DNA from: Aurantimonas aggregata
Lineage (GTDB): Bacteria; Pseudomonadota; Alphaproteobacteria; Rhizobiales; Rhizobiaceae
Assembly (NCBI RefSeq): GCF_010500835.1
Contig: NZ_JAAAMJ010000027.1
Location: forward strand, 1-34,424
Direction of reading: 5' to 3'
DNA length: 34,424 nucleotides
Shown one piece after another: positions 28,835 through 33,628 of this stretch (the stretch's first letter is position 1; each line of letters begins with the position of its first letter). Below the pieces are notes generated by a model. That model searched no databases and was not told the DNA's origin. It worked only from the letters and a program-made list of their open reading frames with translations. A program made the translations under genes and the position numbers.

Positions 28835-28851
28835 ACCTACTTTTAGTAGCT
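28835..28851. promoter_or_regulatory. TetR-type operator 2
   Basis: ACCTAC-TTTTA-GTAGCT repeats the half-site and spacing of operator 1, with one mismatch in the right arm. The two centres are 29 bases apart, close to three helical turns. It ends at or just before the first possible TetR start codon, so binding would block TetR transcription (autorepression). Confidence 0.65.
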
Positions 28852-29525
28852 TGTGCAAATTGGGGCGACCGTATGCGGGCTGCGATCGAGAAGGCGACAG
28901 GAGAAAGGGTACTCGCAGGCTGTCGAAAGAGGTGCGTCGACGCCAGCTACTCGATACGGCGCTCCGCATCGTCCGAACGGAGGGGGCGGATCGACTGACG
29001 CTCGGTCATCTCGCCGCGTCCGCGGGCGTCTCGAAGCCGGTCGCCTACGATCACTTCGGCACCCGTTCGGGCCTGCTCATCGAACTTTACCGTTGGATCG
29101 ACACGGAACGGGTGAATGCGTTCCGCGACGCCATGGCGACGGGGAACCGGAGTTTCGCGGAAACGGCCGACATGCTCGCCTCCGCCTACATCGACTGTGC
29201 CGCCGACATGACCGACGAGTTCCACGCCGTCGGCGCTGCCCTCGCCGGCAGCGAGGAAAAGGCGGCGGTGTTCCAGGAATTGCTGGACTACTCCGTCCAG
29301 ATGTTCGTGTCCGTCCTGACGCCGTTCGGCGCTCTATCATCTGAGGAGTTGGAGCGGCGTTGCATCGGCCTCGTCGGCGCGGGCGAAGCGCTGTCGGCGG
29401 CTGTGGTGCGCGGCAAACTCGACAGAACCGAAGCCGCCGGGGTCTTTGCATCGTTGATCAAGGGCAGTCTGGATGAGCGTCCGCATGACACCGGCAACGC
29501 CAAGGGGCCAGGCTTCTCAATCTGA
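28851..29525 (+). CDS. TetR-family transcriptional regulator
   Basis: The frame gives up to 224 residues. The helix-turn-helix lies at RRRQLLDTALRIVRTEGADR and LTLGHLAASAGVSKPVAYDH, followed by FGTRSGLLIELYR, an archetypal TetR N-terminus. The C-terminal ligand domain is unassigned. The start is uncertain: TTG 28851 overlaps operator 2, TTG 28860 is next, and GACAGGAGAAAGG at 28895-28907 looks like a ribosome binding site pointing to a start near codon 24 (CTG 28920). It is divergent from the truncated oxidoreductase, which was probably its target. The regulator therefore survives while its target is broken. Confidence 0.85.
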   Translation: MCKLGRPYAGCDREGDRRKGTRRLSKEVRRRQLLDTALRIVRTEGADRLTLGHLAASAGVSKPVAYDHFGTRSGLLIELYRWIDTERVNAFRDAMATGNRSFAETADMLASAYIDCAADMTDEFHAVGAALAGSEEKAAVFQELLDYSVQMFVSVLTPFGALSSEELERRCIGLVGAGEALSAAVVRGKLDRTEAAGVFASLIKGSLDERPHDTGNAKGPGFSI

Positions 29526-29893: not shown

Positions 29894-30730
29894 TCAGACG
29901 GTCCTCATTGCGATCCAAGCCCCCGCCGCCACGAACATCATTCCGAACGCCAGCGCGAATCTGTCTCCGCGAGGCAGCAGCTTCTCGAGCAGGACGACGA
30001 TAGCCAGCCCGGCGATCCAGTAGACATTCATGATGCCGCCTACGAACAGCAGCGCCATCAGAGCCCAGCAGCAGCCGAGGCAGTAGGCACCGTGTTCCAC
30101 GCCCATGCGGAACGCCCCGAAGCGGCCTTTCTGCCAGTGCCGCGACAGGAATTCGGCAGGCGAGCGGCAGTGTTCCAGGCACACTTGCTTGAATGGAGAC
30201 AACTGGTAGAGGCCGGCGGCGACGAGCAACGCCGCCGTCAGCCACACACTCACCGACCACATCATCGGCTGGGACAGAAGACCGAGCTGTTCGCATGCGA
30301 ACTGAAGAGTGGTGGCGACGAGCGAAAAGGCGAGCCAGACGAGGAGATAACCGCCGAGAAAAAAGCCGGATGGGATCGCGCCGGCGGCGATCTGTCCCCT
30401 ACTCTGTGCATGGCGACTGACGCGGGCGTGGAGCAGCACCATCGGGGCAACGCTTGGGATCATCATGGCGATCATCATGATCCACCACATGCCGACAATG
30501 ACGAACCAGGTCGCGGCGGACCACGCCGCCGCCGGCATCGTCATCCCTGCCTCCCCGCCCGGAAAGATCGCTGGACGACTCATCATCCAGATGTTCATGC
30601 CGGTGCCGGCCCCGACGAGCAGCCACGCCCAGGCCAGCATGGCGAGCGCCACAAGGCCGGTCAGCATGACCAGGCGGTCGCGCCGGATGATTAGCTCCAC
30701 CGCCGATGTCTGCGGGGTCACGTCGGCCAT
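29894..30730 (-). CDS. DUF2182 integral membrane protein (predicted metal-binding)
   Basis: The 278-residue protein has about six or seven hydrophobic helices. The hallmark MWWIMMIAMMIPSVAPMVLL lies at 81-100 and is Met-rich. LSPFKQVCLEHCRSP (177-191, Cys184 and Cys188) and YCLGCCWALM (216-225, Cys217, Cys220, Cys221) are the conserved Cys motifs of DUF2182. Met and Cys clusters in membrane helices suggest soft-metal binding such as copper, but no function is established to my knowledge. It starts one base after the second DUF1326 gene and is the last gene of the three-gene operon. Confidence 0.88.
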   Translation of the reverse strand: MADVTPQTSAVELIIRRDRLVMLTGLVALAMLAWAWLLVGAGTGMNIWMMSRPAIFPGGEAGMTMPAAAWSAATWFVIVGMWWIMMIAMMIPSVAPMVLLHARVSRHAQSRGQIAAGAIPSGFFLGGYLLVWLAFSLVATTLQFACEQLGLLSQPMMWSVSVWLTAALLVAAGLYQLSPFKQVCLEHCRSPAEFLSRHWQKGRFGAFRMGVEHGAYCLGCCWALMALLFVGGIMNVYWIAGLAIVVLLEKLLPRGDRFALAFGMMFVAAGAWIAMRTV

Positions 30731-30731
30731 G

Positions 30732-31364
30732 TCAGACCCTGATCGGCCCCTGGCCGCTCAGATGCAGGCGGGCGAACTGGCCGTAGGAGTTCTCGAGATC
30801 GAAAGCGATCGGCCCCCGCGTCTTTGAGGAGGCGCTGCCGACTTCCGCAAGCGTGTACTCGAACCCGTCGGGCAGGTCGATCCGGGCCCGATGCTCCAGT
30901 CCAGTCACGACATTGCGGATGGGCTCGCCCACCGTGTCGATGAAGCCGTCGATATGGATATTGCCGCGGCGCGCATCGACATCGACGTCCATGTCGATCT
31001 TGCGGAAGGCGGGCTCGAAGAACTCGCTCACCGTCGACGCGAAAACGTTGAACATCGTCCTGCCGGGCTCGGAATCCTCCCCGGACATGATCTTCAGAAG
31101 CGCCTGACGCTGGTCATCGTCGGCGCGCTCGTCGACGATGGGCTGGCACTTGCCGCCACCTTCGTGGATGGCGCCAGGCCACTGGAAGATGAACGCTATG
31201 CGCATCCCGTCGAGACTGACCCTCCCATGGTGCCCCCGCCGGATGTCGATCGCACCGTTCGCCTGGCAGTGTCCGTGCGTCGGCAGGGCATTGAACTGGC
31301 AGGGGCATCCATAGGCGCAGTTGCAATTGACCAGCTCGACCCCTTCGATTTCCCATGGCGTCAT
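30732..31364 (-). CDS. DUF1326 family protein, paralogue 2
   Basis: The 210-residue soluble protein has the Cys-rich start NCNCAYGCPCQF (Cys14, 16, 20, 22) plus Cys33. It continues with FIFQWPGAIHEGGGKCQPIVDE, TMFNVFASTVSEFFEPAF, PIRNVVTGLEHRARIDLPDG and a C-terminal YGQFARLHLSGQGP. There is no signal peptide, so it is probably cytoplasmic. The C-x-C-x3-C-x-C motif could hold a metal or act in thiol chemistry. It is 29 bases after paralogue 1 and one base before the DUF2182 gene. The two paralogues are diverged, roughly one third identical by eye in conserved blocks, so they may form a heterodimer. Confidence 0.88.
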   Translation of the reverse strand: MTPWEIEGVELVNCNCAYGCPCQFNALPTHGHCQANGAIDIRRGHHGRVSLDGMRIAFIFQWPGAIHEGGGKCQPIVDERADDDQRQALLKIMSGEDSEPGRTMFNVFASTVSEFFEPAFRKIDMDVDVDARRGNIHIDGFIDTVGEPIRNVVTGLEHRARIDLPDGFEYTLAEVGSASSKTRGPIAFDLENSYGQFARLHLSGQGPIRV

Positions 31365-31393
31365 GACATTATCCTTTCGGGTTCGGTCAAGCC

Positions 31394-32029
31394 TTAAGGG
31401 TCGATGATGCCGTGTGGCCCGTACGCGGCATTCCAGAGCGCGCCGTAGCGGCTCTGCCTATGCATGCGGATCTCGCCACCGCTAGTGAACGTACCGCTTG
31501 CGACCTCAGCTTCACGAAATTCGAAGCCCTCGGGCAGCACGATGCGAGCCCGGTGGGCTAGTCCCGTCACGGGATTGCGAATGGGTTCCAGTTCGAGAGC
31601 GAGCTGATCCTCGATCCGAAACCAGCCGGTTCGCTCCTCGATGTCGCTGCCGAAATCGATCGGAGCGAAGACCGGCGGCAATTCCTCGGCGATCGTCGAG
31701 CCATAGATGTTGAAGACGGTGGTCGGCTCCTGCTCGCCGCCACCGAGGATGATGCTCAGCGCCTCGACCTGGGTGGGGGTGGCGTCGCAGTCGATGAAGC
31801 CTTGAACGACGCCGCCGCCTTCGTGCACCGGGCCGGGCCAGCGATAGGCCGCCGCGACCTTGAGGCCGTCCAGCCGCAGATCACCGAACCAGCCATCATC
31901 GATCCGCATGCATTCGAGCCCCTCGCAGAGGCCTTCCGTCGGCTTGCCGTTGAATTCGCAGGGACATCCGTAGTCGCAGCTACACGCTGCAATCTTAGGT
32001 CCCTTTATTGCCCAGTCGACGTAGGGCAT
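31394..32029 (-). CDS. DUF1326 family protein, paralogue 1
   Basis: The 211-residue protein starts at ATG 32029 (GGAG seven bases upstream; a GTG directly before it is an alternative). Its Cys motif is CSCDYGCPCEF, with two more cysteines about 10 and 15 residues further on (LCEGLECM). Shared blocks with paralogue 2 are RWPGPVHEGGGVVQGFID, TVFNIYGSTIAEELPPVF, PIRNPVTGLAHRARIVLPEG and a C-terminal YGALWNAAYGPHG. It lacks a signal peptide. It is the first gene of the DUF1326-DUF1326-DUF2182 operon; the promoter should lie in 32030-32300. Confidence 0.88.
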   Translation of the reverse strand: MPYVDWAIKGPKIAACSCDYGCPCEFNGKPTEGLCEGLECMRIDDGWFGDLRLDGLKVAAAYRWPGPVHEGGGVVQGFIDCDATPTQVEALSIILGGGEQEPTTVFNIYGSTIAEELPPVFAPIDFGSDIEERTGWFRIEDQLALELEPIRNPVTGLAHRARIVLPEGFEFREAEVASGTFTSGGEIRMHRQSRYGALWNAAYGPHGIIDP

Positions 32030-32308
32030 CACAGTTCTCCGAGAGAAACTGAACTTTAACAGTATCGGACGCGGAGGGAAAGGCGCGGATCGGCCGCCCC
32101 GGGCCGTGAGCCGCTGTCAGTTTTAGATGAGCGACTGGGAGAGGGCTCCCCTTTAGGCTTCGATGTCCAAATCCCTCAGCGTGACGTTGGAGACTGCTGC
32201 AACCGAGATGCGTTTCCGCGGGAGTGCCCGCGGTGCAAGCGCTAACTGGACCGGGGCGCCATCCCCACCTGCCGCTGATCGTGGCACTTCCTCACAAGGC
32301 GAAAAGGT

Positions 32309-33628
32309 ATGCACGTGAATTTCTTGACAGCGACGGCCACCGAGATTGCACATGCGGTCGCAAGGAGGGATACGACCGCGGAGAAAGTCGCAAGGGCCTT
32401 CATCGCCCGGGTTGAGGAGCTCGAACCGTACGTCCATGCTTTCTCTTGGTACGATCCGCAGGACATCCTCCGCCAGGCCGACGAGATAGACCGCGGAGAG
32501 AGAGGTGGTCCCCTCGCCGGCGTGCCGCTGGGTGTCAAAGATGTGTTCGACACGAGGGACATCCCGACTGAGTTCTTTTCTCCGATCTACGCGGGCAACA
32601 AGCCGTCGCGGGATGCCGCAGTGGTCGCCCGGCTGAGGGCGATGGGCGCTATCGTGATGGGCAAGACTGCGACGACCGAGTTCGCCTTCATGCACACCGG
32701 GCCGACCCGCAACCCGCACGATCTCGATCGCACGCCCGGCAGTTCCAGCGCCGGCTCGGCAGCGGGAGTCGCAGCCGGCTTTTTCCCTCTGGCGTTAGGG
32801 ACGCAAACGGCAGGCTCATTGCTGAAGCCGGCCTCCTTCTGCGGGGCGTTCGCTTACAAGCCGAGCTTCGGCCTCGTCTCAATGGAGGGCATCAAGCCGC
32901 TGGCTCCCGCCTTCGACACGGTCGGCTGGTTCGGCCGCAGCGTTGAAGATCTGGCGCGGGTCGGTCGAGCTTTGATTGCCAACTTGCCTTCGCTGCCTTC
33001 GTTGCCCCGGTTGCGTCTTGCCCTCGTGCGGTCCCGGCGTTCGGAGACGAGCGACGGTGCCCTACGCAGCTACCTGGAGGCTGTCTGCGGCCAGCTCAGG
33101 GCGGCAGGTCATATTGTTGACGATCTGGAGGAACCAGTCGGGTTCGGGTCATCCTATGAGGATCACCGGATCGTCAACGATGCCCAGGGTGCGCGCTCTC
33201 TGGCTTTCGAGCGGGAACTGGACATCGAGCTGCTGAGCGAGGAAGCCAAGGCCATGATAGCTCATGCCGACGAGGTATCATGGGAAGCGGAGCGTGCAGC
33301 GCAGCAGCGTCTGTCAGGGCTGCGGAATGCCATCGAGCCTGTTGTGGCGGCTTATGATGGAGTGCTGGACCTCAGCACCGCGAGTGTTGCTCCTGTCGGC
33401 CTGATTTCCACTGGCCCCTCAGATCTGATCAAGGTTTGGTCTGGCTTCGGCTTTCCCCAGGTCAACCTTCCAGTCCAGGCAGGCCCCGGCGAGCTGCCAT
33501 TTGGCCTCCAGCTCTTTGCGGCGCGATATGACGACGCGAGGCTTCTGGCCTCTGCGTCTTCCGTTGCCCGGTGCATCGGCGCGGCCCGTGTTCCGCCTCT
33601 GCCGATCTCTCCACCGCTACGCACTTGA
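32309..33628 (+). CDS. Amidase signature family enzyme
   Basis: The 439-residue protein shows the Ser-cisSer-Lys triad context: Lys77 in LGVKDVFDT, the Ser cluster PGSSSAGSAAGVAAG (143-157) and nucleophile Ser170 in LGTQTAGSLLKPASFCG. The canonical GSSGGS is SSSAGS here, and GGSxRxPA is AGSLLKPA. YKPSFGLVSMEGIKPLAPAFDTVGWFGRS follows as in many amidases. The length is normal. It hydrolyses an amide of unknown identity in the cytoplasm. The ATG at 32309 is preceded by a weak AAGGCG site. The gene stands alone, divergent from the DUF1326 operon and convergent with the broken AraC gene, and is not obviously part of the large catabolic cluster. Confidence 0.88.
   Translation: MHVNFLTATATEIAHAVARRDTTAEKVARAFIARVEELEPYVHAFSWYDPQDILRQADEIDRGERGGPLAGVPLGVKDVFDTRDIPTEFFSPIYAGNKPSRDAAVVARLRAMGAIVMGKTATTEFAFMHTGPTRNPHDLDRTPGSSSAGSAAGVAAGFFPLALGTQTAGSLLKPASFCGAFAYKPSFGLVSMEGIKPLAPAFDTVGWFGRSVEDLARVGRALIANLPSLPSLPRLRLALVRSRRSETSDGALRSYLEAVCGQLRAAGHIVDDLEEPVGFGSSYEDHRIVNDAQGARSLAFERELDIELLSEEAKAMIAHADEVSWEAERAAQQRLSGLRNAIEPVVAAYDGVLDLSTASVAPVGLISTGPSDLIKVWSGFGFPQVNLPVQAGPGELPFGLQLFAARYDDARLLASASSVARCIGAARVPPLPISPPLRT

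Follow-up and report, generated by a model that had tools for sequence, protein, structure and literature searches.

The window analysed here, a stretch of 34,424 nucleotides (positions 1 to 34,424 of contig NZ_JAAAMJ010000027.1) from Aurantimonas aggregata, carries on its minus strand a compact module of three genes, in which two copies of the soluble protein DUF1326 are followed by a polytopic membrane protein of the PpoB2 family. The module may be read as a two-part Cu(I) trafficking system, with its soluble part doubled in the window, in which Cu(I) would enter via PpoB2, pass to cytosolic DUF1326 and then reach cytosolic cuproenzymes; a probability of about 0.55 is assigned to this reading of inward delivery as a whole. 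Judged from sequence, Cu(I) is quite probably the ligand of the DUF1326-PpoB2 pair. Gene linkage, residue conservation and predicted topology, all obtained by computation, form the basis of the reading.

The membrane protein (third gene, 29894..30730, minus strand, 278 aa) matches PF09948 along the entire profile (2.4e-66, profile positions 1-188 of 188), scoring 223.7 bits against a gathering cut-off of 28.7, and belongs to this family, formerly DUF2182 and COG5486, which Pfam now calls "PpoB2, Copper chaperone". Excerpts of a review describe the PpoB2 encoded in the Marinomonas mediterranea tyrosinase operon as similar to COG5486 transmembrane proteins, as involved in transferring copper specifically to the tyrosinase PpoB1 rather than the laccase PpoA, and as the first COG5486 protein to be given a physiological role (PMC2855505). 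It is the one experimental case of copper transfer to an enzyme that was met with for this family. The two soluble proteins, copy A (first gene, 31394..32029, minus strand, 211 aa, predicted cytosolic) and copy B (second gene, 30732..31364, minus strand, 210 aa), are members of PF07040, with 161.5 bits (2.9e-47) and 176.1 bits (9.7e-52), respectively, against a cut-off of 25. This family, DUF1326, is presumably COG5588. A search of one literature collection by family name and identifier found no paper naming DUF1326, or DUF2182 under that name. The initial annotation had treated both families as lacking an assigned function, which still holds for DUF1326 and is out of date for DUF2182, since the Marinomonas PpoB2 has a physiological role as far as the excerpts go. 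Its suggestion of a soft metal such as copper is probably right, copper being the best-supported ligand by virtue of the PF09948 name and of the Marinomonas protein as described in those excerpts. The module had also been put forward as the best candidate for an undescribed system; what is new, as far as was searched, is the close pairing with DUF1326, the shared pattern of conservation, and the linkage with methanethiol oxidase and with a single carbon monoxide (CO) dehydrogenase cluster, PpoB2 being the half that is already known.

The proposed co-occurrence of the two families was borne out by the genomes surveyed, and their genes adjoin in most loci. Among 398 Pseudomonadota genomes, 44 carried DUF1326 and 52 carried PpoB2, and all 44 genomes with DUF1326 also possessed PpoB2; in 120 relatives, DUF1326 was found in 39, PpoB2 in 46 and both in 38. 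With adjacency defined as PpoB2 lying within 300 nt of DUF1326, or overlapping it, on the same strand, the two genes adjoined in 63 of 67 loci from a protein search of named genomes, in 8 of 12 plasmid loci and in 37 of 40 loci from the relatives. Seen from PpoB2, DUF1326 stood alongside in 44 of the 51 places fetched in the phylum survey, out of 66 PpoB2 match rows; the 15 unfetched rows comprised that of the window itself, places already covered among the relatives, second copies or close kin of fetched places, and weak or split matches (G130, G306 and G451). The four survey sets are not independent samples, because they share organisms, and Burkholderia and Paraburkholderia are heavily represented. 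Both orders of the two genes occur, and annotated DUF1326-PpoB2 pairs are also present in haloarchaea and Actinomycetota.

Conservation was counted over loci L033-L151, using open reading frames (ORFs) above 100 bits and 150 aa for DUF1326 or above 90 bits and 170 aa for PpoB2, with identical rows entered once and the divergent DUF1326-free PpoB2 proteins of later loci excluded; outside annotated records, genes were called with a codon model of our own, which places some starts too far upstream. Both DUF1326 copies, diverged paralogues of 40% identity, contain the C-x-C-x3-C-x-C motif noticed in the initial annotation (C14, C16, C20 and C22 in copy B; C16, C18, C22 and C24 in copy A), together with a fifth conserved cysteine (C33 and C35, respectively). 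Each of the five is kept in 118-120 of 121 rows, and the motif is therefore more than chance. In PpoB2, the Met-rich stretch MWWIMMIAMM lies at residues 81-90, CLEHC at 184-188 and CLGCC at 217-221, with further methionines at M225 and M234, as had been noted in part from the sequence. M81, M85, M89, M90, C184, C188, C217, C220, C221, M225 and M234 are kept in 98-102 of 102 rows and M86 in 80 of 102, and the conserved methionine helix and cysteine pairs are all present in the window protein. Smaller tool-made alignments agree for both families, and the conservation of the cysteines and of most helix methionines bears out the earlier proposal on this point.

The AlphaFold2 model of PpoB2 (mean pLDDT 85.8) is nearly all helical, with about seven predicted membrane helices, and that of DUF1326 copy B (mean pLDDT 94.0) is beta-rich; judged by eye, neither DUF1326 copy has an obvious signal peptide. 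Searches of the PDB by sequence gave no match at E ≤ 1 for copy B or for PpoB2. Foldseek found nothing in the PDB for PpoB2 at E ≤ 0.001 and only a weak likeness of copy B to acetoacetate decarboxylase (3c8w, E 3.4e-4, TM 0.41, rmsd 12.5), and none of the three proteins had an NCBIfam match at E ≤ 0.001. Lysine and arginine are commoner on the inner loops of PpoB2, with loops assigned by hand and the N-terminal count inflated by overlong ORFs, and this charge pattern points to an inside location of the N-terminus, loop 2 and loop 4. Methionines average 3.6 and 1.8 in the outer loops, which have almost no cysteine, and 5.5 in helix 2; the cysteines are found in inner loop 4 (2.0 on average) and in helix 5.

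The succession of outer methionines, helix methionines, inner cysteines and soluble cysteines matches what an inward Cu(I) path might be expected to look like. PpoB2 would pick up Cu(I) at its Met-rich periplasmic side, and the ion would move along the methionines of the second helix (M81-M85-M89/M90) to reach the cysteine pair of CLEHC in the cytosol and the CLGCC site in the membrane. Cytosolic DUF1326, with its five cysteines, would then take over the Cu(I) and deliver it to a cytosolic copper enzyme or buffer it. Binding of Cu(I) by DUF1326, its docking on PpoB2 and an inward flow are inferred.

Copper enzymes are found beside some PpoB2 genes that lack DUF1326. There are 19 such loci (L195, L198-L200, L224-L226, L238-L246, L252, L255 and the short fragment L262), and five of them adjoin copper-enzyme genes: tyrosinase in three, SBP56 in one and a form I CO dehydrogenase in one. 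A tyrosinase with DUF7868 lies directly upstream of a low-scoring PpoB2 in L225, L226 and L243, with gaps of 10 nt in L225 and 9 nt in L226. On a Paracoccus seriniphilus plasmid (L252:4154-6729), genes for a selenium-binding (SBP56) family protein, a 2Fe2S protein and DUF2182 follow one another, the last two overlapping by 4 nt, and no DUF1326 is present in the stretch; SBP56 is a copper-dependent methanethiol oxidase family, according to excerpts of PMC5739008. In one genome (L244:871-8066), a form I CO dehydrogenase cluster includes PpoB2, separated by 12 nt from the preceding coxG, together with coxS, a coxL encoding AYRCSFR, a CoxD-like AAA protein, CoxE and XdhC/CoxI. Excerpts of work on CO dehydrogenase give the AYRCSFR motif a copper-binding role (PMC4240915), and the L244 protein is possibly a copper-insertion helper. 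A sixth locus, L255, contains a heavy-metal P-type ATPase and CueR. The CO dehydrogenase link rests on one locus, L244. A second candidate, L072, was not counted because the nearby CoxL-like protein carries AYRGAGR in place of the copper-binding AYRCSFR. When the L244 PpoB2 was used as a query against 385 Alphaproteobacteria, weak matches were obtained in four genomes at five short loci, in which CoxG gave no match; these were rejected as representatives of the L244 kind, as DUF1326 is present at three of them and all five have the scores of ordinary PpoB2.

Links to copper enzymes are also seen where DUF1326 is present. DUF1326-PpoB2 pairs lie about 1 kb (L093) and 4 kb (L102) from SBP56, and in L117 a DUF1326 gene is near SBP56 with PpoB2 elsewhere in the same genome. 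Across the 120 relatives, 17 genomes have both SBP56 and DUF1326, nine SBP56 alone, 22 DUF1326 alone and 72 neither, so that DUF1326 is present in 17 of 26 SBP56 genomes versus 22 of 94 others (Fisher 1e-4, without correction for kinship). By eye, the four SBP56 proteins near module genes have no obvious signal peptide. In addition, a multicopper oxidase ORF directly follows the PpoB2 of a DUF1326-PpoB2 pair in L190, and in Caballeronia grimmiae the opposite strand carries a tyrosinase gene some 2.3 kb away from the pair. SBP56 and tyrosinase queries, taken from loci of the same study, matched 1 and 2 of 91 case loci, respectively, and none of 60 arbitrary stretches, numbers too few for a test. 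In two roseobacters (L102:5155-11848 and L253:4767-8319), DUF2182-DUF1326 genes adjoin those of dimethylsulfoniopropionate (DMSP) demethylase, one of the clusters also having SBP56; the depositors labelled the L102 pair 'involved in DMSP breakdown'.

Several observations weigh against inward delivery to cytosolic enzymes. The multicopper oxidase of L190 has the look of an exported protein, so the targets are not invariably cytosolic. No recognised copper enzyme adjoins 14 of the 19 DUF1326-free PpoB2 loci, and in five of them (L198, L199, L200, L224 and L239) the gene directly upstream of the divergent PpoB2 encodes DUF899, which we take to be thioredoxin-like and for which we know of no copper role. 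The L244 PpoB2 lacks the cysteines of both CLxxC and CxxCC and the L252 protein those of CLxxC; having been lost there, the PpoB2 cysteines are not needed everywhere, and the tyrosinase-linked proteins are also divergent at these motifs. DUF1326 is without an adjoining PpoB2 in 11 of 119 loci (L037, L079, L087, L099 at a contig end, L101, L105, L108, L111, L117, L124 and L145). Moreover, excerpts of a study of O. carboxidovorans credit CoxF with the supply of copper to CO dehydrogenase (PMC4240915).

The neighbourhoods as a whole count on the same side. The control was coarse, consisting of 60 arbitrary stretches largely from the same genomes at places chosen by hand, and the non-redundant set of loci was obtained by dropping those of at least 75% identity. 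Escherichia coli CopA, CueO and CusF queries matched 4 of 56 non-redundant module loci (5 of all 91) and 3 of 60 control stretches; module versus control, CusA matched 1 and 1, CusB 1 and 0, and CusR 2 and 8, the last being commoner in the control. The metal-resistance partners that had been anticipated around the module were thus not enriched, and a general copper-resistance island was rejected as the rule, copper genes being no commoner than in the control. Immediate neighbours of the non-redundant loci are mostly unrelated: the 134 scanned out of 161 match 193 Pfam families, none of which occurs in more than six proteins; the most frequent is a zinc-type alcohol dehydrogenase with six members, and the 25 top families listed include two members of CsoR type and two tyrosinases. 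A single conserved target gene nearby was discarded as a candidate, given that no neighbour family is commoner than this and that the flanks differ even among Aurantimonas relatives. The window genome itself yielded no match to tyrosinase (PF00264), a model that does detect the enzyme in genomes G224 and G309, and no SBP56 methanethiol oxidase, so neither is retained as the target there. These negative searches suggest that the target in A. aggregata is something else, or that the module serves a general copper pool. A tyrosinase in the same operon or genome is a trait of the Marinomonas-like layout and not of the PpoB2 family as a whole. Among the other DUF1326-free loci, L195, L238 and L242 have, after PpoB2, a conserved protein of 245-250 aa with a marginal match to CDP-alcohol phosphatidyltransferase, L240 and L241 have a TerC protein in this downstream place, and the remainder have no telling neighbour.

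A reversed flow, in which DUF1326 would scavenge cytosolic Cu(I) and PpoB2 would export it or hold it at the membrane for protection, is unlikely, although it accounts for some of the neighbourhoods. In Aurantimonas manganoxydans two opposite-strand genes separate the triad from a run, some 2 kb away, of outer-membrane channel, multicopper oxidase, cupredoxin, CusF, DUF305 and cytochrome c; a Mycobacterium gallinarum plasmid carries CopC-DUF1326-CsoR and a Sulfitobacter plasmid a P-type ATPase and CueR ahead of DUF2182; a CsoR relative lies about 250 nt behind PpoB2 in L144, and several Burkholderia loci have CusF-like genes behind PpoB2. Copper defence is opposed by the lack of enrichment of copper-export genes near the module relative to the control, by the enzyme-supply role of the Marinomonas PpoB2, as excerpted, and by the window genome, in which a similar channel-oxidase-cupredoxin-CusF run is found on another contig. 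Given this separation and the different flanks again seen in A. coralicida and one more congener, the module stands largely on its own.

It is improbable that the DUF1326-PpoB2 clades handle another soft metal or metalloid (mercury, silver, zinc or arsenic), with copper confined to the tyrosinase clade. A GDCCVxC protein beside the pair on Cupriavidus necator pHG1, a permease family resembling ArsP close to the pair in loci from SAR116 and Jiella (scanned in one representative) and the TerC proteins of L240 and L241 point that way, but each of these neighbours was seen in few lineages. The MxxxMxxxMM helix pattern is one commonly met at Cu(I)/Ag(I) sites, and neither zinc nor arsenic is well coordinated by methionine. 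A sulfur or thiol relay, with sulfane sulfur (persulfide) or a disulfide borne on the cysteines, is improbable too: YeeE/YedE, rhodanese, MBL and TauE neighbours in a Microvirga locus, DUF302/TauE/MBL neighbours in M. gallinarum, the DMSP demethylase by the pair in two roseobacters and the production of sulfane sulfur by Rhodobacteraceae methanethiol oxidases (excerpts of PMC10936201) would suit it, but a thiol relay offers no evident use for the PpoB2 methionines, which are nearly invariant, and the linkage to tyrosinase and Mo-Cu CO dehydrogenase fits copper.

The doubling of DUF1326 is probably old rather than the result of a recent duplication, to judge from the sequences. In a tree of 77 rows, copy A joins the A copies of other Aurantimonadaceae, a Hyphomicrobiales metagenome-assembled genome and the solo DUF1326 of Sinorhizobium meliloti pSymA, apart from copy B and with an SH-aLRT support of 98 (a quick tree, no bootstrap). 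The second copy is thus probably an old, separate lineage; it has retained all five cysteines. The pSymA gene (L101:6833-7621) encodes a protein 80% identical to copy A, and there is no PpoB2 in the fetched stretch. Tandem copies occur in 4 of 67, 0 of 12, 3 of 40 and 0 of 51 surveyed loci, and a DUF1326 heteromer, or a division of labour between the copies, is possible but a weak idea, because most loci carry a single DUF1326.

Within the window, the three genes are tightly packed, the gaps of 29 bases between copies A and B and of 1 base between copy B and PpoB2 being as first described. Copy A begins with an ATG at its 32029 end, with a GGAG shortly upstream; an alternative GTG at 32032 would add one residue. 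The intergenic region towards the divergent amidase gene (32030..32308, minus strand) is the presumed promoter site; it can be aligned across Aurantimonas relatives, most closely near the start codon, and no sigma-70-like site was found in it. The module is flanked by genes for a TetR-family regulator (28851..29525, plus strand; PF00440, 3e-9) and the amidase (32309..33628, plus strand; PF01425, 2.4e-61), both outside it as far as was seen. Pfam models run over the whole window genome detect two DUF1326 genes and one PpoB2 gene, all at this locus. The closest named relative found is A. manganoxydans SI85-9A1, in which copy B is 95% identical. A congener (G003, L149:7997-9933) has a second, weaker A-B-PpoB2 set, the PpoB2 match covering only profile positions 2-131.

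How copper crosses the inner membrane to reach enzymes that are loaded within bacterial cells is little understood. A recurrent two-gene unit, one half of which has experimental precedent, gives DUF1326 a concrete and testable role, and provides candidates for the supply of copper to methanethiol oxidase, in the sulfur cycle, and, from one locus, to CO dehydrogenase, a CO sink. Should inward delivery be wrong on the direction of flow, DUF1326 would still be placed in copper biology. As a tentative generalisation, the pair might represent a widespread prokaryotic route of Cu(I) import and delivery for cuproenzymes maturing in the cytosol (tyrosinase, methanethiol oxidase without a signal peptide and Mo-Cu CO dehydrogenase), a counterpart of Ctr1 and its soluble chaperone built on two folds without a close solved match, the window version having two specialised acceptors.

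The eukaryotic Ctr1-Atx1 route combines an MxxxM membrane helix, methionines outside and cysteines inside with a soluble Cys-rich acceptor, and DUF1326-PpoB2 would work alike if inward delivery is right. The Ctr fold has three helices per chain, whereas PpoB2 has about seven predicted helices and no PDB fold match at E ≤ 0.001, which places it outside the Ctr type; compared with the soluble part of that route, DUF1326 is a 210-aa beta-rich protein. The M. mediterranea PpoB2 is of the same Pfam family as the window protein, both being polytopic membrane proteins, and is tied to copper transfer. Its layout, with PpoB2 beside tyrosinase in one operon, was seen only in the DUF1326-free loci L225, L226 and L243; the window PpoB2, likened to it through the Pfam family, differs in having DUF1326 partners and no tyrosinase match in its genome. 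As clear members of their family with all five cysteines, the window copies of DUF1326 stand out as a tandem pair before one PpoB2. Finally, excerpts of PMC5739008 describe SCO1/SenC as the presumed copper donor adjoining the methanethiol oxidase gene mtoX. As far as those excerpts go, SCO1/SenC and PpoB2/DUF1326 are thus both found near the same enzyme family, SCO1 beside a methanethiol oxidase with a signal peptide and PpoB2/DUF1326 near SBP56 proteins without an obvious one.

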